Below are positions 20,924-63,853 of a stretch of DNA of 64,000 bases, piece after piece (the stretch's first letter is position 1; every line of letters starts with the position of its first letter). The stretch is from Prevotella sp. Lineage in GTDB: Bacteria; Bacteroidota; Bacteroidia; Bacteroidales; Dysgonomonadaceae. The DNA lies in NCBI GenBank assembly GCA_031285625.1, contig JAITVV010000048.1, positions 1-64,000 on the forward strand, given 5' to 3'. The position numbers and the translations under genes are program-made. The notes below the pieces were generated by a model. It was not told the origin of the DNA. It did not search any database and saw only the letters and a list, made by a program, of their open reading frames with translations.

Positions 20924-21004
20924 AAAATTAGATTAATTATTTAGTAATTAGACTTATACACAAATCACATTTTTATTAATATGTTGAATAACATAATTTG
21001 ATTT

Positions 21005-21096
21005 AAGGTCTCAGACCTATTTATCACTTGTGTATCTGAAAGAGCAATAATAAGCTATAAAATTGCAATTAAATATTAAATAGTTTCTTTTATTTA
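21005..21096 (-). repeat. 90-bp intergenic repeat, copy C
   Basis: Third copy: AAGGTCTCAGACCT, ATTTATCACTTGTGTATC, and the closing TTAAATAGTTTCTTTTATTT. As with copy B, the far end reaches the stop codon of a minus-strand gene (cbiB, stop 21094-21096). The copy is about 20 kb from A and B, so this is a dispersed family and not a local duplication. Confidence 0.65.
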
Positions 21097-25549: not shown

Positions 25550-27004
25550 ATGAAAATATTAACTGGCAATCAAATTAAAGAAGCTGATCTGTATACAATC
25601 GAGCATGAACCGATCAAATCAGTTGACCTGATGGAAAGAGCTTCAAATGTTATTGCGGAATGGATATACAGTAATATAAATAAGCATACTCCTCTCCTGT
25701 TTCTTATAGGTAAAGGTAATAATGGAGGTGATGGCCTGGCTGTGGCCCGTATTTTATATTATGCCGGATACGATTGTTCGGTCTTATTACCTTTTGAGAA
25801 GGAAGCATTAAGCAGAGAGTGCCGTAAAAACCTTGAAAGACTGCCAATTGAAATTGGAAAGAAAGATACCAAAGACATAAAATCCAATACCATAATTATC
25901 GATGCTCTACTGGGTACAGGAGTAAAAGGGAATATTAAAGAGCCTCTGTCATCAATAATTGAAGAGATCAACTTATTACCGAATAAAGTTATTTCTATTG
26001 ATCTGCCATCAGGTATGAAAAGCGAATTTGGAAATATTGATCAAAAAATAATTAAAGCAGGTATAACCCTTACGCTTGAATTTCCCAAATTAGCAATGCT
26101 ATTGCCTGAAGCAGGAGAATACTGCGGAGACATAAAGATACTACCGATAGGACTGGATAAAGAATTTATTAACAATGCTCCATCTACTTATCACTATATT
26201 ACGAATGAGTTTATAGAAAATATAAAACTCAGACGTGAAAAATTCTCTCATAAGGGTACATACGGGCACGCTTTACTTATCTGTGGATCCAGAGGAATGG
26301 TAGGAGCAGCAGTTTTAGCTACAGGAGCAGCATTACGCTCGGGTTGCGGGTTAGTAACAACACATATCCCTGAAGAAGAACGACTTGCTATACAAGTAAA
26401 CCATCCTTCAGCAATGTTAAGCCTCGATGAGGCACCTTATTTTTCGACATTACCCATCAACATATCTAAATATACAAGTATTGGCATCGGTAGCGGGCTA
26501 GGACAAAACCATGAAACAACAAGCACATTCAAACAATTACTAAATAGCATATACAGACCAATTGTGATTGATGCCGATGCCCTAAATATATTATCTGATA
26601 ATTATAACTTAAGACAGCATATACCTGCTGGCTCTATACTTACTCCCCATCCGGGAGAACTGAAACGCCTGATAGGTGAATGGCCGGATGAAGAAATCAA
26701 AATAGAGCATGTGCGAAAATTGGCATCAAATCTACAATCGATCATTATAGTAAAAGGGGCACATACCATGATATGTCTGCCTGATGGCAATTGTTATTTC
26801 AATTCTAGCGGAAATAGCGGAATGGCTAAAGGTGGCAGTGGAGATATACTAACAGGTTATATTACAGGATTGCTAGCCAGAGGCTATGATAGTATTCACG
26901 CAGCCATATTAGGGGTACACAGGCACGGGCTGGCCGGAGATGAAGCTGCTGAAAAATATAGTGTAGAGAGTATGAACAGTAAAGATATAATAGACTTTCT
27001 TTGA
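25550..27004 (+). CDS. nnr: bifunctional NAD(P)H-hydrate epimerase / ADP-dependent NAD(P)H-hydrate dehydratase
   Basis: A 484-residue fusion that repairs damaged NADHX/NADPHX. The N-terminal YjeF_N epimerase domain (about 1-215) has GKGNNGGDGLAVARIL. The C-terminal YjeF_C/ribokinase-like dehydratase domain (about 225-484) has LTPHPGELKRL, VKGAHTMI and NSGMAKGGSGDILTGYITGL. Both domains look complete. A structured element on the opposite strand begins right at the stop codon. Confidence 0.95.
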   Translation: MKILTGNQIKEADLYTIEHEPIKSVDLMERASNVIAEWIYSNINKHTPLLFLIGKGNNGGDGLAVARILYYAGYDCSVLLPFEKEALSRECRKNLERLPIEIGKKDTKDIKSNTIIIDALLGTGVKGNIKEPLSSIIEEINLLPNKVISIDLPSGMKSEFGNIDQKIIKAGITLTLEFPKLAMLLPEAGEYCGDIKILPIGLDKEFINNAPSTYHYITNEFIENIKLRREKFSHKGTYGHALLICGSRGMVGAAVLATGAALRSGCGLVTTHIPEEERLAIQVNHPSAMLSLDEAPYFSTLPINISKYTSIGIGSGLGQNHETTSTFKQLLNSIYRPIVIDADALNILSDNYNLRQHIPAGSILTPHPGELKRLIGEWPDEEIKIEHVRKLASNLQSIIIVKGAHTMICLPDGNCYFNSSGNSGMAKGGSGDILTGYITGLLARGYDSIHAAILGVHRHGLAGDEAAEKYSVESMNSKDIIDFL

Positions 27005-27082
27005 TAAAAAAAGAAGCCCGCAACATCACATCGCAGACTTCCTGTACCTTAACACAAACTTTACAAACTACACAATGATATA
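27005..27082 (-). ncRNA. candidate small RNA, family copy 1
   Basis: On the minus strand TAGTTTG (a shortened -7 box) is followed by TAAAGTTTGTGTTAAGGT. Then comes a terminator hairpin at 27013-27041 (arms GAAGTCTGCGAT / GTTGCGGGCTTC, loop GTGAT) with seven Ts. The 5' part is nearly identical to the elements at 50787 and 62905, while the hairpin arms covary. The hairpin lacks a T-run on the plus strand, so it is not simply the nnr terminator. The RNA would be about 60 nt. Confidence 0.55.
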
Positions 27083-27142: not shown

Positions 27143-27949
27143 TTAGAAATAAAATTTGAGCATACCATCAAAACGCTCCATGTAGCGATACAGATGTTTA
27201 CCTAAAATACGTTGCTGCTCTTTTTTTGAATTGAGTTCCATCTCCGCATATTTAGAAGTGTTTCCCTTATATGCATAATCAAATTGACGGGTGTTTACCT
27301 GAATAAGGATAAGGATTAGTGTAATAGATAATATAGTAGTTGTGAATAACCTGGCTTTTTCCCTAACCTTCTTAAATATAGCCGGTATAGTCAGATTAAT
27401 AATTATAGAACCTACTATTAATAAGAAAATATCATAGTTATTCCACCACCATATCTTACCAGAGCCTCCGACATAATCGACTGAAGGCCAAAACATAGCG
27501 ATTCCGCCCCATACCGATGACGAAGTAGGCAGATCGCCGGCTAGATGTGCCCATGCCGCTAATATGAATACAGCTAAATATATCAGATGGCTTTTACATA
27601 AAGATGGTAACACTATTTGCTTTTTGCTGAACACCTTTTGGAATAAGAATATTGAGGATACCAGCAAGAGACCAAAGAGAATACTTGCTATAATAGAATG
27701 GAAAAAGGCATGATGGGAATACCAAAACTTACTTCCATAAATGACTTTTCCAGTATGAGACAGATCGAAAAGACGACCGAATATACTATCAAAACGAGAC
27801 CACATACTAATAGCGTCTATATCGGGGAAAGCTCCTCCGACAGTACCTATGAGTATAATCTTTGCCTTCCTAAGAGGTGTAGCACCAACATAAGTTGCAG
27901 CACATGTAGCCACAGCTGTTCCCGATAAGGCATGAGTGAGTATGTCCAT
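27143..27949 (-). CDS. DUF457/YdjM-type membrane-bound metal-dependent hydrolase
   Basis: A 268-residue membrane protein. MDILTHALSGTAVA at the N-terminus, GGAFPDIDAISMWSRF, and KFWYSHHAFFHSIIASI are the YdjM/DUF457 hallmarks; their His and Asp residues resemble a metal site of the phospholipase-like family. LAAWAHLAGDLPTSS and about four further transmembrane helices follow. The enzymatic activity is not proven for this family. It is 8 nt after the HTH regulator gene in one operon. Confidence 0.85.
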   Translation of the reverse strand: MDILTHALSGTAVATCAATYVGATPLRKAKIILIGTVGGAFPDIDAISMWSRFDSIFGRLFDLSHTGKVIYGSKFWYSHHAFFHSIIASILFGLLLVSSIFLFQKVFSKKQIVLPSLCKSHLIYLAVFILAAWAHLAGDLPTSSSVWGGIAMFWPSVDYVGGSGKIWWWNNYDIFLLIVGSIIINLTIPAIFKKVREKARLFTTTILSITLILILIQVNTRQFDYAYKGNTSKYAEMELNSKKEQQRILGKHLYRYMERFDGMLKFYF

Positions 27950-48958: not shown

Positions 48959-48966
48959 TACCTTTG
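48959..48966 (+). promoter_or_regulatory. -7 promoter box of the MFS gene
   Basis: TACCTTTG overlaps the first codon (48964) of the longest open frame, so the true start is the ATG at 48985. Confidence 0.6.
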
Positions 48967-48984
48967 CACATATTTTACCATAAA

Positions 48985-50397
48985 ATGAAATTAAGCAAAT
49001 CACATACCGTAGCATTAATAGTTGCCATAGCATTTTTTATGCAGGGCTTAGATACTACTGCAGTAAACACTGCGATTCCGGCTATGGCCCGCTCTTTTGG
49101 AACAGATGTTGTGCACCTGAGTTCGGGGGTCACATCATATCTTATAGCCCTAGCAATCTTTATCCCGGTAAGTGGATGGATAGCAGATAGATATGGAATC
49201 CGGAAAGTATTCTGTACAGCAGTAATACTATTTATACTGGCATCCGCATTATGTGGTATATCCCAATCACTTACACAATTTGTGATGTTCCGCATCTTTC
49301 AGGGAATGGCCGGAGCTATGATGACCCCTGTCGGACGTCTGGCTGTATTAAAGTCTTCAACGAAGGAAGATTTAGTAACAACAATGGCCTACATTACCTG
49401 GCCTGCACTTGTTGCCCCTATATTAGGCCCTTTAGTCGGCGGATATCTTACAACATATTGGTCATGGCATTGGATATTTTATCTGAATATCCCTATCAGT
49501 ATAATATGTGTTGTTTTAGCATGGCATTTTATACCCGAAGAAAAAGACGATGGCTTACCTAAGCGGAGATTCGATGCTGTCGGATTTGTTTTCAGCGGAC
49601 TTGCCCTGGCAGGATTCATGTATGGAGTAGAACTGCTTAGCCGTTCAGAAGTCCCCTATTATGTATCGGCTATAATTATCATTATTAGTGTATGTCTGCT
49701 ATTATTCAATATCCGCTACTCAAAGCATATCTCTAATCCTCTGATAGATTATTCAATTGTGAAGATACCTACTTATAAAATTACAATATTTACAGGTTCT
49801 CTTTCCCGTATGGTGATTGGAGTAGCTCCATACCTTGTCCCTCTGATGTTTCAGGAAGGTTTTGGATTAAATCCATTCCAATCGGGTATGCTGTTTTTGG
49901 CAACTATGGCTGGTAACCTGACGATGAAACCTGCTACAATTTGGATAATGAGGCATTACAATTTCCGCACGGTTTTGGTCGCTAACGGGTTCCTGGTTGC
50001 ACTGTTTACATTCTTCACGGCCTTGCTGCTACCAACCACCCCTGTTATATTGATCGTAGTAGTTATGTTCTTGTCAGGTATGTTCCGCTCCATGCAGTTT
50101 AGCGCCATTACAACATTAGCTTTTGCCGAAATACCTCAAAAAAGCATGACTGCAGCGAATACATTATATAGTACAGTACAACAAATGTCGACAGGTATGG
50201 GTATTGCAATGGGAGCTGTATTCCTCAGATTCTCCAATATGATAAATGGACATACCGAGCATTACACTGTAGCCGACTTTCGTCTTGCGTTCATATTTGT
50301 AGCCGCCCTTGGAATAATCTCACTATATGGCTTTACCAAACTTGCTCCGGATGCAGGTGATGCAGTAAGAGTAAAGAAAAGGGACAGGAATGCATAA
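48985..50397 (+). CDS. MFS drug transporter, DHA2 (EmrB/HsrA) type
   Basis: A 470-residue major facilitator protein. Helix 1 (VALIVAIAFFMQGLDTTAVNTA, split at LDTTAVNTAIPAM) carries the DHA2 motif D1, and GWIADRYGIRKVF is motif A. GPLVGGYLTTYWSWHWIFYL is motif C. It probably has 14 helices. It likely exports drugs or other small molecules with proton antiport; the substrate is unknown. Two GTNAC-type palindromes behind the stop serve as terminators. Confidence 0.9.
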   Translation: MKLSKSHTVALIVAIAFFMQGLDTTAVNTAIPAMARSFGTDVVHLSSGVTSYLIALAIFIPVSGWIADRYGIRKVFCTAVILFILASALCGISQSLTQFVMFRIFQGMAGAMMTPVGRLAVLKSSTKEDLVTTMAYITWPALVAPILGPLVGGYLTTYWSWHWIFYLNIPISIICVVLAWHFIPEEKDDGLPKRRFDAVGFVFSGLALAGFMYGVELLSRSEVPYYVSAIIIIISVCLLLFNIRYSKHISNPLIDYSIVKIPTYKITIFTGSLSRMVIGVAPYLVPLMFQEGFGLNPFQSGMLFLATMAGNLTMKPATIWIMRHYNFRTVLVANGFLVALFTFFTALLLPTTPVILIVVVMFLSGMFRSMQFSAITTLAFAEIPQKSMTAANTLYSTVQQMSTGMGIAMGAVFLRFSNMINGHTEHYTVADFRLAFIFVAALGIISLYGFTKLAPDAGDAVRVKKRDRNA

Positions 50398-50786: not shown

Positions 50787-50856
50787 TAGTTTTGTAAAGT
50801 TTGTGTTAAGGTATGAGAAAGTCCTGCGACGTGAGGTTGCGGGCTTTTTAATTTAT
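50787..50856 (+). ncRNA. candidate small RNA, family copy 2
   Basis: TAGTTTTG (perfect -7 box, 50787-50794) is followed by TAAAGTTTGTGTTAAGG and then a hairpin (50818-50847). Its arms AAAGTCC-GCGAC and GTTGCGGGCTTT have one bulged T and the loop GTGAG, followed by TTAATTT. Compared with copies 1 and 3 the arms covary. Neither neighbouring gene ends at this hairpin on the plus strand; the stop codon of the minus-strand lipoprotein gene lies inside its T-rich tail. Predicted length about 50-55 nt. Confidence 0.6.
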
Positions 50857-51555
50857 AATACTACTATTTCTTATTTTGCTTAGATCTACAATTTTTGTTT
50901 CCTCCATCGCCTCCTCATTCCGAAATGTGATCTCTATCTTATGATCAGGCATCTTTTTTATAACATTCTCATCTCCGTTTTCAAATTGCCATTCCCAAAC
51001 AGGAAAATCAAAAAGATTATTCCATTTGTTTTCTTTATAGCTGAAAATATAATATGTATTGGTACTCGACCAATCTGCATAATTGACTAAATATAGTAAT
51101 TCATCGCCTCCATCGCCATCCAGATCTCCTTTATTATCCATAAAATACAGACCAAACAGTTGTCCTCCGGCATCAATAGTAGTAACAGTATCCGTTACAT
51201 TATTTTTGTTGATAATATAGATTACGGGATCTAGTTTCATTGTCCGCTCCACCAATTCATCATAACTTATTTTATCTCCATATAAAAACAATGGAGAAGC
51301 TATCGCTCTATTGAGAACCCGGCTATAATAACATACATACAATGTATCTGTTTTCCCATCTCCCTTCCAATTACCAGTAACCATTTCCGGAGTATAACCA
51401 CTCAGAGATTGCGGAACTTCTTGAATATCCCAGTTTAAAGGAACTTTATTATCTGCAAGGCAAATCGAATCAATAATTACATTTCCGTTATTTGCTGTTT
51501 GATTTTTATTGCAGGATATAGTTGCTATAAAAAGTAAAATAATAATTTTTTTCAT
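50848..51555 (-). CDS. hypothetical lipoprotein
   Basis: A 235-residue lipoprotein (lipobox ATISC). It contains MVTGNWKGDGKTDTLYVCYY and NKGDLDGDGGDELLYLVNY, split repeats of the FG-GAP/VCBS type with calcium-binding DxDxDG loops. So the mature protein probably holds two or three propeller-like blades. The cellular role is unknown. Its stop codon overlaps the T-rich tail of the candidate sRNA at 50787-50856. Confidence 0.75.
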   Translation of the reverse strand: MKKIIILLFIATISCNKNQTANNGNVIIDSICLADNKVPLNWDIQEVPQSLSGYTPEMVTGNWKGDGKTDTLYVCYYSRVLNRAIASPLFLYGDKISYDELVERTMKLDPVIYIINKNNVTDTVTTIDAGGQLFGLYFMDNKGDLDGDGGDELLYLVNYADWSSTNTYYIFSYKENKWNNLFDFPVWEWQFENGDENVIKKMPDHKIEITFRNEEAMEETKIVDLSKIRNSSIIN

Positions 51556-59768: not shown

Positions 59769-61628
59769 ATGAAAAAACTGATCGTATTAACTTTCTTCCT
59801 CATCTCATTTTTTACTTTATATGCCCAACAAGTACTTTTTCCCAGAGAAGAAAACACATGCAGGATAATGTCGTATAACATTAGGAATGCAAGAGGGCTC
59901 GATGAAATAACTAATTATCAACGGATAGCAAATATTATAGAGAAAGTTTCTCCCGATGTTATTGCTTTACAGGAACTGGATAGTGTAACACAACGAAGCA
60001 ATAAGGCTGATGTATTGAAACAACTAGCCGACATCACCAGAATGCATGCGATATATGGTGCTGCTATACCTTTTCAGGGAGGTAAATATGGTATTGGCAT
60101 CCTTTCCAAAAAACGTCCTTTATCATGGAAAAACATTCCTCTTCCGGGACGGGAAGAAGTACGGGCACTGCTCATGGTCGAATTTGATAAATATATTGTT
60201 TTTGCTACCCATTTTTCGCTTACATCAGAAGATCGTATAACATCAATAAAGATAATAAATGAGCTGGCAAATCATTCTGATAAACCGGTATTCTTAGCTG
60301 GAGACCTCAATGCAGAACCAGATTCATCCGAGATAAAGACATTAGCTACGAATTGGAAAATTCTGAATAATACTAAAGATGCGACCTTCCCGGCAAATAA
60401 TCCTGTAAATAAAATAGATTATATTATGGGATATGCAAAAGGAGGTAAGACTTACTCGGTGCATCAGGCCAAGGTTGTGGATGAGCCTGTAGCGTCGGAT
60501 CACAGGCCATTATTTGTAGATGTACGATTAAGTACAAGCGAAGATAAAGTAATGCGTACACAGCCATATCTGCAAAATCCGTCCACAGATGCAATGACTA
60601 TAATGTGGATGACAAATGTGCCTTGCCGTAGTTGGGTCGAATATGGGACAGATAGCACTAACATGCAGCGTGCACGTACATTTGTGGAAGGGGAAGCTAT
60701 GGCAAATAATACTATTAATCGTATCCGGCTGGAAGGACTTAAACCCGGTACAAAATACTACTACCGTGCTGTATCACAGGAAATAACTCTTTATCAACCA
60801 TACAAGAAAGAATTCGGAGATACTGTACGCACAACTTTATCTTCCTTTACAACATGGAATGATAATCTAAAAGATTTTACAGCTCTGGTATTTAATGATC
60901 TTCATGACAATTATGATCTTTTTGATAAGTTATATGCCCAGGTAAAAGATAAAAAGATTGATGTTATTATATTTAATGGTGATTGCATTGCAGATGTACA
61001 AAGTGAGGATGTTGCCGTAAAGAGCATTTCTCATTACTGTGAGGTAGCTGGCGGAAATAATATACCAACAATCTTTATCAGAGGAAATCATGAGACAAGA
61101 GGAGCATACTCGATGTTTTTATGGAATCTGCTGGAGAAAAAAGGAGGAACACATACTTATGGTGCGTTTAATCTGGGAGATACACGTTTTGTTTTGCTTG
61201 ACTGCGGAGAAGACAAGCCGGATGATCACTGGGTATATTATGATATGAATGACTTTACCCATTACCGCCAGGAGCAGGCTGACTTCCTGCGAAAGGAGTT
61301 GGCTTCCTCTGAATTCAAAACGGCTAATAAACGCATCCTTATTCACCATATACCTCTCTTCGGGAAAAATATGGATGAGTATAATCCGTGTAAAGACTTC
61401 TGGGAACCGATACTGGCAAACGCTAAGTTTGACGTTTCGCTGAATGCACATACTCATGAGTTTGAATACATTCCAACCGGGAAGGAGCAAAATAACTACC
61501 CGGTAATGATAGGTGGAGGTCCTAGTGAGAAAAGTGGCGTAGTTACTGTTTTGGAAAAAAAAGGGAATAGCATGACTCTCACTGCTATAAATGTAAATGG
61601 AGCGGAAGTACTAAAGCTTGATTTGTAA
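59769..61628 (+). CDS. exonuclease/endonuclease/phosphatase - calcineurin-like phosphoesterase fusion
   Basis: A 619-residue secreted protein (signal ends TLYAQQ). Residues of about 30-255 are an EEP domain: SYNIRNA (N37), ALQELD (E69), THFS (H148), AGDLNAEPDS (D179, N181) and SDHRPLF (D244, H245). About 260-355 is a purple-acid-phosphatase-type Fn3 domain (TIMWMTNVPCRSWVEYG, GLKPGTKYYYRAVS). About 365-600 is a calcineurin-like domain: D377 and H379, D405, GNHE (N440, H441), H526-H527, H561 and H563. All metal ligands look intact, so both active sites may work, perhaps on phospholipid or nucleotide phosphoesters (inference). Confidence 0.92.
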   Translation: MKKLIVLTFFLISFFTLYAQQVLFPREENTCRIMSYNIRNARGLDEITNYQRIANIIEKVSPDVIALQELDSVTQRSNKADVLKQLADITRMHAIYGAAIPFQGGKYGIGILSKKRPLSWKNIPLPGREEVRALLMVEFDKYIVFATHFSLTSEDRITSIKIINELANHSDKPVFLAGDLNAEPDSSEIKTLATNWKILNNTKDATFPANNPVNKIDYIMGYAKGGKTYSVHQAKVVDEPVASDHRPLFVDVRLSTSEDKVMRTQPYLQNPSTDAMTIMWMTNVPCRSWVEYGTDSTNMQRARTFVEGEAMANNTINRIRLEGLKPGTKYYYRAVSQEITLYQPYKKEFGDTVRTTLSSFTTWNDNLKDFTALVFNDLHDNYDLFDKLYAQVKDKKIDVIIFNGDCIADVQSEDVAVKSISHYCEVAGGNNIPTIFIRGNHETRGAYSMFLWNLLEKKGGTHTYGAFNLGDTRFVLLDCGEDKPDDHWVYYDMNDFTHYRQEQADFLRKELASSEFKTANKRILIHHIPLFGKNMDEYNPCKDFWEPILANAKFDVSLNAHTHEFEYIPTGKEQNNYPVMIGGGPSEKSGVVTVLEKKGNSMTLTAINVNGAEVLKLDL

Positions 61629-61752
61629 AGCCTTCAATCTCTGCTTATCTTTCATATTTCACAAAAATATTTTTCGGACAAAATATACTATTATATTTCT
61701 TTTTAGTTTTTTTGGTATAAATTTTGTTGCTGTTCATTCTATACACTTCATT

Positions 61753-62883
61753 ATGAAACAGAAAACAAAAACAAGACTAAAAAAAACTATGTTAATAGCT
61801 ATATCTATCATTGGCATTCTAATCATTGCCGGAATCATATTCTTAAACTCACCTAGATTTGGAAAGACTCCGTCCGGCGATCGACTGGAAAGGGTGAAGA
61901 GCTCGCCTAACTACAGGGAAGGTAAATTTCAAAACCAGAGCTATACAATTCAATTAACCGGTGATAAGAATATGTTTCTTACAGGTTTAGATTTTCTATT
62001 CGGAAAAAAAGAGAGGTTAACCCCTACTGTAGCATTACCAACAATAAAAACCGATCTTATAAACTTGAATAGGGAATCTGATATTTTAGTTTGGTTTGGT
62101 CATTCATCTTATTTTATGCAAATTGATGGTAAACGAATCCTTGTAGATCCGGTATTCAGCGATGTATCACCTGTTTCTTTTATAAATAAACCGTTCAAAG
62201 GTACCGATATCTATAAACCAACCGACATGCCTGATATCGATTATCTGTTTATATCCCATGATCACTGGGATCATCTGGATTATAATACAGTTATGGAGCT
62301 AAAAGATAGAACAAGTAAGATCATTTGTGGTTTAGGTGTTGGCGAACATTTCGAACATTGGGGTTTCGACAAGAATAAAGTAATTGAATTAGATTGGAAT
62401 GCAGTCTCTACCCTGGATGAAGGATTTAGTACATACTGTCTTCCCACCCGTCATTTCTCCGGCAGAGGATTATCCCCGAACCAATCACTCTGGGCATCGT
62501 TCTTATTACAAACTCCCACAATGAAAATATATATTGGTGGCGATAGCGGATATGATGCTCATTTTGCAAAAATAGGCGAACAATTTGCAGAAATAGATTT
62601 AGCTATATTGGAAAATGGACAATATAATCAGGATTGGAAATATATTCATATGATGCCCGAAGAGGTAATACAGGCCGCAAAAGACCTACATGCTAAAACT
62701 CTACTTCCTGTTCATTCTTCTAAGTTTGCTCTTGGGTATCACTCTTGGGACGAACCTCTGAAAAGAATTACTGAAGCAAACAAGAAAGAAAACCTGCGTT
62801 TACAGACACCTATGATTGGAGAAATCGTAAATTTGAAGGATAGCACACAAACCTTTAAAGAATGGTGGGCTGGTATTGATTAA
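61753..62883 (+). CDS. MBL-fold metallo-hydrolase (UlaG/NAPE-PLD-like)
   Basis: A 376-residue protein with one N-terminal membrane anchor. Motifs of the UlaG/NAPE-PLD-like branch are visible: VWFGHSSYFMQIDGKRILVDPVF, split after WFGHSS, then the metal site HDHWDH in LFISHDHWDHLD, a further His in LPTRHFSGRG, YIGGDSGY, and VHSSKF in the C-terminus. The frame extends upstream to 61618 but that part is membrane-like and overlaps the preceding gene, so Met at 61753 is preferred. It likely hydrolyses a phosphodiester or lactone in the envelope. Confidence 0.87.
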   Translation: MKQKTKTRLKKTMLIAISIIGILIIAGIIFLNSPRFGKTPSGDRLERVKSSPNYREGKFQNQSYTIQLTGDKNMFLTGLDFLFGKKERLTPTVALPTIKTDLINLNRESDILVWFGHSSYFMQIDGKRILVDPVFSDVSPVSFINKPFKGTDIYKPTDMPDIDYLFISHDHWDHLDYNTVMELKDRTSKIICGLGVGEHFEHWGFDKNKVIELDWNAVSTLDEGFSTYCLPTRHFSGRGLSPNQSLWASFLLQTPTMKIYIGGDSGYDAHFAKIGEQFAEIDLAILENGQYNQDWKYIHMMPEEVIQAAKDLHAKTLLPVHSSKFALGYHSWDEPLKRITEANKKENLRLQTPMIGEIVNLKDSTQTFKEWWAGID

Positions 62884-62904
62884 TACACGAGATAATATAA
62901 ATGC

Positions 62905-62965
62905 AAAAAGGTCCCGATATCACATCGTAGACCTCTTCAACCTTAACACAAACTTTACAAAACTA
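62905..62965 (-). ncRNA. candidate small RNA, family copy 3
   Basis: On the minus strand the perfect -7 box TAGTTTTG (62958-62965) is followed by TAAAGTTTGTGTTAAGG. A hairpin follows at 62909-62934: arms AGGTCTACGAT / ATCGGGACCT with one bulged A, then a run of Ts. It is antisense to the intergenic region between two plus-strand genes, so it cannot be their terminator. Compared with copies 1 and 2 the arms have changed on both sides while the stem is kept. Confidence 0.6.
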
Positions 62966-63115: not shown

Positions 63116-63853
63116 ATGAACGAACTATCATACTGCCCTTATTGTAACCAAAAAATAGAGATCGGTAGCGAAAAGTGCCCTTACTGTCAACGTATTTTTA
63201 CTTCAATGAAAAGACGCGTATACGAACCGGGTTATGCACTGATAAGACAAGATTTTGGCCTGATAAAAATAGTTTCTGTAACACTCACTTTCTTAATGGT
63301 ATTATTGTGCCTCTATCCATTCTTAAATAGAAATGTTTATATATTGCAGTCTTTTGATGAAGGTACAATACCCCTGTTTGTAATAACTCTGATTATTATA
63401 TTGTCATTGTGGCAGATATCATTTGTATCTAAATATTTACTTAATTTCTACCATCCTTTTTCAAAGATTTTTACAAACATCAGATGGGAAATGATAGCTA
63501 TAGTTTTTTTTCTACTGCTAGGTATCTCTGCCATAATAGTTGACACACTCAATAACTCAGACTTACAAAGTGGCATGCCTATCTATAAAGATATGATCAG
63601 CCATCAGAATATGCAGATTATTACATCACTTTTTATTGCAACATACGTATTTTGGGTTTTTGTTCATGCTATAACAGGATGGACACTTGCCGATTCTCGT
63701 AAACTTGACTTTGTGGGAGGGCTTCCTTATTTAGGATATATTTTGTTGGCGTCTGCAATTATCCCTTTATTCATTATATTTGTGCCAATGTTTGTAACAA
63801 ATATATTCTTTAAAGCCGGAGAATATTCAAAAAAGTATGGATTTCTGACATAA
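63116..63853 (+). CDS. zinc-ribbon multi-pass membrane protein
   Basis: A 245-residue protein. The N-terminal SYCPYCNQKIEIGSEKCPYCQ is a CxxC...CxxC zinc ribbon, followed by about five transmembrane helices (VTLTFLMVLLCLYPF, FVITLIIILSLWQISF, and three in the second half). The ribbon is probably cytosolic. The function is not known. Another strong hairpin lies just after the stop at 63861-63897. Confidence 0.7.
   Translation: MNELSYCPYCNQKIEIGSEKCPYCQRIFTSMKRRVYEPGYALIRQDFGLIKIVSVTLTFLMVLLCLYPFLNRNVYILQSFDEGTIPLFVITLIIILSLWQISFVSKYLLNFYHPFSKIFTNIRWEMIAIVFFLLLGISAIIVDTLNNSDLQSGMPIYKDMISHQNMQIITSLFIATYVFWVFVHAITGWTLADSRKLDFVGGLPYLGYILLASAIIPLFIIFVPMFVTNIFFKAGEYSKKYGFLT

Follow-up and report, generated by a model that had tools for sequence, protein, structure and literature searches.

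Three intergenic loci of the window, the 64,000-nucleotide stretch of DNA that was analysed, are probably genes of a multicopy family of trans-acting small RNAs (sRNAs) that is spread over the whole genus, runs parallel to the FopS family and would repress mRNAs of the cell envelope, possibly including those of the T6SS. Each copy would have its own Bacteroidota -7-type promoter, with transcription starting about 5 nt past the box and giving an RNA of about 55-65 nt. At its 5' end this RNA would carry the unpaired seed GUUUGUGUUAAGGU, followed by a Rho-independent terminator whose loop is usually of the GNRA type. As this seed is different from that of FopS in the same genomes, the family would control a different regulon. 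Among the candidate targets, a short OmpA-domain protein has the best support; pairing with its mRNA at an CCTTAACAC-type leader site would block ribosome binding. T6SS mRNAs (Hcp/TssD, VgrG, a gp25/TssE-like gene and an RHS-repeat protein) are plausible further targets. We infer transcription, pairing in the cell, repression and the participation of a chaperone; the candidate for the last is the one RRM_1 protein, 106 aa long, that is encoded in the window's genome.

The three loci

The initial annotation described a common order of elements at the three loci, consisting of a promoter box, an invariant segment, a covarying hairpin and a T-run. The same order was found at all three:

27005-27082, minus strand: locus 1, intergenic, span as first annotated
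27064..27070, minus strand: locus 1, -7-type promoter box TAGTTTG (sequence)
27047..27062, minus strand: locus 1, conserved 5' segment AAAGTTTGTGTTAAGG with the seed GUUUGUGUUAAGGU (sequence match)
27004..27043, minus strand: locus 1, terminator hairpin (GTGA loop) and T-run (predicted by folding, z -4.26)
50787-50856, plus strand: locus 2, intergenic, span as first annotated
50787..50794, plus strand: locus 2, -7-type promoter box TAGTTTTG (sequence)
50796..50811, plus strand: locus 2, conserved 5' segment AAAGTTTGTGTTAAGG, the seed (sequence match)
50816..50852, plus strand: locus 2, terminator hairpin (GTGA loop) and T-run (predicted by folding, z -3.61)
62905-62965, minus strand: locus 3, intergenic, span as first annotated
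62958..62965, minus strand: locus 3, -7-type promoter box TAGTTTTG (sequence)
62941..62956, minus strand: locus 3, conserved 5' segment AAAGTTTGTGTTAAGG, the seed (sequence match)
62901..62938, minus strand: locus 3, terminator hairpin (GTGA loop) and T-run (predicted by folding, z -2.46)

The details of the annotation are borne out as well. The box is one T shorter at locus 1 (TAGTTTG) than at loci 2 and 3 (TAGTTTTG), and the hairpin arms differ between the loci (GAAGTC..GGCTTC, AAAGTCC..GGGCTTT and AGGTCT..GGACCT) around a constant GTGA loop. The 16-nt segment AAAGTTTGTGTTAAGG is exact at all three loci. With up to 3 mismatches it occurs at 5 places in the window, the two additional places having 3 mismatches each; shuffled versions of the segment give a mean of 1.23 places in the same search, and 5 is reached by 1 of 100. 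Among 200 shuffles of each hairpin, 0, 0 and 6 are as stable as the native hairpins of loci 1, 2 and 3, respectively. Transcription is expected to start at the usual distance past a -7 box, and the box spacing at locus 1 would place the start near 27058-27060.

Copies and distribution of the family

In the window's genome (4.84 Mb, 94% complete), AAAGTTTGTGTTAAGG occurs with up to 2 mismatches at 12 places, and 7 of these have both the box and the hairpin. The covariance model R1, which was built from these 7 copies, matches all 25 genomes of the genus, taken as Dysgonomonas, with 2-19 matches each at E<=0.01. The initial annotation had proposed such a search, and it returned both more copies and further covariation. 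Four weaker model matches in the window's genome (L134-L137) are divergent or doubtful. Across a sample of the order, R1 matches 37 of 295 genomes at E<=0.01. Matches below 1e-5 outside the genus occur in 3 of the 295 (3e-14, 2.2e-7 and 2.5e-6), one of them in another family, and many of the remaining matches outside the genus may be chance terminators. The 25-mer TAGTTTTGTAAAGTTTGTGTTAAGG was found at 73 loci in named genomes, the records being titled Dysgonomonas, Prevotella and, once, Bacteroidia bacterium.

Two family copies stand in tandem, about 43 nt apart, at L155:677-850 (minus strand) and at L157:614-787 (plus strand), one with a truncated seed, GUUUGUG.

Because only the 25-nt 5' block was used to find the 73 loci, the sequence on the 3' side gives an unbiased test of the hairpin. 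The 73 downstream stretches are all distinct, and their folding z-scores are below -2 in 72 and below -3 in 66, with a mean of -4.7. In a sequence-only alignment of 7 sequences both sides have changed in 10 of 13 pairs, a number that none of 500 shuffles reaches. The count rises to 13 of 13 pairs for 92 distinct model-fitted matches, the alignment of which leans to structure. In the preferred reading, the seed of the family is constrained and the hairpin needs only to stay paired. Model matches, covariation and unbiased folding together support the original proposal that the loci are paralogous sRNA genes, each with a conserved seed at the 5' end and a terminator behind it.

Some features could also belong to a dispersed promoter-terminator repeat that spreads in the manner of REP or MITE elements and has no regulatory function. 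Several copies are clustered, 4 of the 7 core copies of the window's genome lying within 60 kb on one contig, and the tandem copies of L155 and L157 fit this picture too. Nevertheless, such a repeat is very unlikely, because the hairpins differ between copies while the 5' block is kept, and because a pairing site is conserved in the leader of an unlinked gene (see below).

Neighbouring genes

It was initially thought that two of the loci lie on the strand opposite to the upstream gene. This is true of locus 3 only; loci 1 and 2 are both situated behind genes of the same strand:

27143-27949, minus strand: upstream neighbour of locus 1, same strand as the locus
25550-27004, plus strand: downstream gene of locus 1, convergent
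48964-50397, plus strand: upstream neighbour of locus 2, same strand as the locus
50848-51555, minus strand: downstream gene of locus 2, convergent
63116-63853, plus strand: upstream neighbour of locus 3, opposite strand to the locus
61618-62883, plus strand: downstream gene of locus 3, convergent

Common to the three loci is convergence on the downstream gene, which touches the terminator end at loci 1 and 2. The 73 exact 25-mer loci are mostly situated behind a same-strand gene (49, compared to 6 behind an opposite-strand gene; another 5 were left unassigned, and the other 13 overlap open frames, 11 of them shorter than 115 aa). The family loci may therefore also serve as terminators.

This prevalence of same-strand neighbours also agrees with a simpler reading, in which the hairpins are plain terminators of the adjoining genes and the 5' block acts within 3' UTRs as a signal for processing or termination. 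Scans found no other terminator-like site at loci 1 and 2, as this reading would have it. However, a terminator needs neither an invariant 25-nt block with a -7-type box nor a match between that block and a conserved leader site elsewhere, the gene upstream of locus 3 is on the other strand, and there are up to 19 matches per genome. The travelling block with its promoter-like box, the neighbour of locus 3 and the seed-complementary leader site make termination of neighbours hard to accept as the only role, and the reading is considered unlikely. Genes of an sRNA family remain the preferred interpretation.

Promoter boxes and seed classes

The 92 distinct model matches are a chosen sample comprising the best match per genome, weak matches and two genomes taken nearly whole. 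In this sample the box reads TAnnTTTG in 62 matches, TAGTTTG in 11 and neither in 19. The canonical -7 box of FopS, TAnnTTTG, is thus present in the window family. In relatives, the position of the locus 1-type box is occupied by TATCTTTG (L110) and TACCTTTG (L167), both of which are allowed by TAnnTTTG. The exact 25-mer loci commonly have TGTG directly in front of the box; a clear -33 element is not apparent in them. GTGTTAAGG is kept in 53 of the 92 matches. Divergent members have other 5' ends and include class B (GUAGUUUGUGAAGUG), class C (UUUAUAUUAGUGUUAAGGUC), class D and forms that lack UUAAGG.

A class D element (UUUGUCUUAAGGUU) is located about 10 nt from a class A copy, in convergent orientation, at L146:1409-1476 and L159:632-699 (both minus strand). 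A separate dispersed intergenic element, ending in AATAGGTCTGYGACCTTAA, is found in the window at 953-971 and 21003-21021 (both minus strand) and has 10 core copies in 1.63 Mb of the window's genome. Five of the 10 are within 60 nt of the start of an open reading frame, compared to 0 for a reversed control pattern. Part of this element, GACCTTAA, is complementary to the end of the class C seed.

Relationship to FopS and GibS

The nearest known family to the window loci is FopS (Rfam RF04319, BTncRNA_FopS). In PMC11697453, FopS is described as a set of 14 paralogous sRNAs that have their seed at the 5' end, carry a terminator and repress the translation of SusC-like transporters. Binding by RbpB is a further feature of FopS; the window's genome encodes the one RRM_1 protein mentioned above. 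Both families are multicopy and short, and have a -7-type promoter followed by a single-stranded 5' seed and a Rho-independent terminator with a GNRA-type loop, although for the window family this structure is a predicted one. Both have UUAAGGU in the seed, and in both the seed is complementary to the initiation regions of envelope genes. The seeds themselves are different, being GUUUGUGUUAAGGU in the window family and AUUAGAUUUAAGGUUAA in FopS. The R1/R1' seed of FopS, with TATTAGATTTAAGGTTAACAAA in its consensus, is absent from the window family, and only TTAAGGT is common to both.

The FopS model R2 was built from genomes of family f25, which is inferred to be Bacteroidaceae from its FopS 15-mer (38 of 39 genomes have it with no more than 1 mismatch). 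R2 matches all 25 genus genomes, with a best E below 1e-11 in 23, and 36 of 149 genomes across the order at E<=0.001. Its strong matches in the window's genome are six loci, all distinct from the seven core copies. On R2, class C loci reach 37-41 bits and some of class A 20-30 bits; R1 recognises class C members as well. R1 also picks up many f25 FopS loci weakly, and of its 9 matches in that family 6 fall on FopS 15-mers. The window family and FopS are likely to have a common origin.

The similarity in design, the shared UUAAGGU and the mutual recognition by the two models raise the question of whether the window loci are divergent members of FopS itself that regulate susC mRNAs. This is improbable. 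The Rfam model RF04319 (gathering score 56 bits) has no match at E<=1 in five family loci (L001, L003, L004 and L005 of class A, L149 of class C), whereas four of the six FopS loci of the window's genome, in L242 and L243, score 80-82 bits; at the gathering score the model has no match within the window. The pairing properties of the two seeds, described in the next section, also speak against it. The window loci are better regarded as a family parallel to FopS.

GibS (Rfam RF04182) is a Bacteroides sRNA that has two seeds and has the R1 seed in common with FopS. The true FopS loci of the window's genome match the GibS model, 142 positions long, below its cut-off. No RF04182 match was found in the five window-family loci tested.

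FopS-model matches lie about 4 kb or less from a long (~389 aa) OmpA gene in nine genus genomes, as compared by hand from coordinates (G000:C52, G003:C3, G005:C1, G006:C23, G007:C250, G010:C12, G013:C3, G016:C14 and G019:C1).

The proposed OmpA-like target

Pairing of seeds with mRNA leaders was scored by a stacking-energy script. The FopS seed gives a mean of -11.07 on 49 susC leaders compared to -9.05 on 391 others (p=1.4e-8; 0 of 60 shuffled seeds as good), and this enrichment serves as the positive control of the method. On the same leaders the window-family seed shows no susC enrichment (p=0.12; 44 of 60 shuffled seeds as good), and susC was rejected as its target.

One of the top matches of the seed in its own genome is an OmpA-domain gene (PF00691, E 4e-14) with ACCTTAACAC 14-23 nt before the start. 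Orthologs of this short gene were found in 19 of the 25 genus genomes (E<=1.7e-56), with the leader site 11-29 nt before the start codon. The seed pairs at a score of at least 9 with 18 of the 19 leaders, so that the site expected for a trans-acting seed is conserved in the orthologs of the target; the remaining leader, L353, reaches 8.5. Among 300 shuffled seeds the mean is 1.36 leaders and the maximum 17, none attaining 18. CCTTAACAC is the only long run upstream of the start that is at least 90% conserved. It is exact in 16 of the 19 leaders and changed in L353, L362 and L364, the change in the latter two leaving a G-U pair. The FopS seed pairs with none of the 19 leaders, which separates it from the window family, and neither do the class B and class D seeds; the class C seed pairs with all 19.

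An OmpA-like ortholog was not found in six of the 25 genus genomes, all of which carry family sRNAs, so the OmpA-like gene would not be the sole target; four of the six assemblies are 99-51% complete and some of the absences may be gaps. Further searches in nine genomes gave only distant OmpA-domain matches in six and none in three. The leader of L367, at a contig edge, is unreadable. No seed site was seen by eye in the long OmpA paralog (8 loci, L370-L377).

The T6SS locus and other leaders

A first set of 392 own leaders and 409 others gave no excess of strong pairing with the family seed. Among 1012 own leaders, 7 pair at <= -17 compared to 1.7 for shuffled seeds, a number reached by 1 of 200 shuffles; there is no excess at milder cut-offs, and a further 224 leaders yielded none at <= -15. 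Contig C80 carries a T6SS locus whose TssD and VgrG are among the top own matches; Pfam domains of TssD (three times), TssF, gp25, TssR and VgrG are found in this locus. In an RHS-repeat gene that adjoins VgrG and lay outside the scan of 1012 leaders, TACCTTAACACG precedes the start. Seed pairing is enriched across the 19 leaders of the locus (0 of 300 shuffles; p=0.0012), a result from one genome and partly post hoc. When the three genes that had pointed to the locus are left out, the enrichment is moderate (9 of 300 shuffles for the 16-nt seed, 1 of 300 for the 18-nt seed, p about 0.02). The FopS seed gives no signal on the leaders of this locus. Only one other T6SS region was found, in G008 (L452); it is divergent, and by eye the strong sites are absent from it. 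Searches by synteny and in viral contigs gave no additional region, and a plasmid search yielded 13 records with distant TssD genes.

These observations allow a tentative wider picture, which is possible but not the expected outcome: Dysgonomonas would have two parallel multicopy sRNA families built alike, FopS acting on polysaccharide transporters and the window family, with an exchanged seed, acting as a dosage-type brake on the T6SS (Hcp/TssD, VgrG, the gp25/TssE-like and RHS-repeat proteins) and on the OmpA-like envelope protein. If true, foraging and contact-dependent antagonism would be set by two sister seed families. To our knowledge, the sRNAs of Bacteroidota whose targets have been established are few. 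Next to FopS, another multicopy family that has its own seed and a conserved target site would illustrate the division of such families into separate regulons. It would also provide this phylum with a base-pairing sRNA that acts on an OmpA-type protein and perhaps on the T6SS. Control of T6SS by sRNAs is already in print for other bacteria (PMC11796373, PMC11443567). Dysgonomonas is not named in the FopS paper (PMC11697453) as searched. Searches of the literature on FopS and Bacteroides sRNAs, Dysgonomonas noncoding RNA, and OmpA and paralogous sRNAs, whose coverage leaves out most subscription papers, found no published title on such a family.

The gene in L138 gives an own match as strong as that of the OmpA-like gene. 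Its exact 10-nt site occurs in none of the 16 readable orthologs (L382 is unreadable and L396-L398 were left out). In these leaders the second seed half (ACACAAAC-type) pairs more than expected, with a mean of 7.97 compared to 6.39, a result that 6 of 500 shuffled seeds match; within 40 nt, 5 of the 16 score at least 9. Given this pairing, L138 was dropped as a clean negative control, and it may be regarded as a weak candidate target.

The orthologs of L138:17474-18142 (minus strand), L378-L395, constitute a small family of secreted proteins, the leaders of which have ACACAAAC-type seed matches. The G008 homolog of this family adjoins a VgrG-like gene. Strong seed complementarity is also present in the leaders of a GtrA-like gene, L441:10856-11332 (minus strand; a 13-bp match with G-U pairs), and of a TROVE/Ro60-like gene, L421:17-1528 (minus strand).
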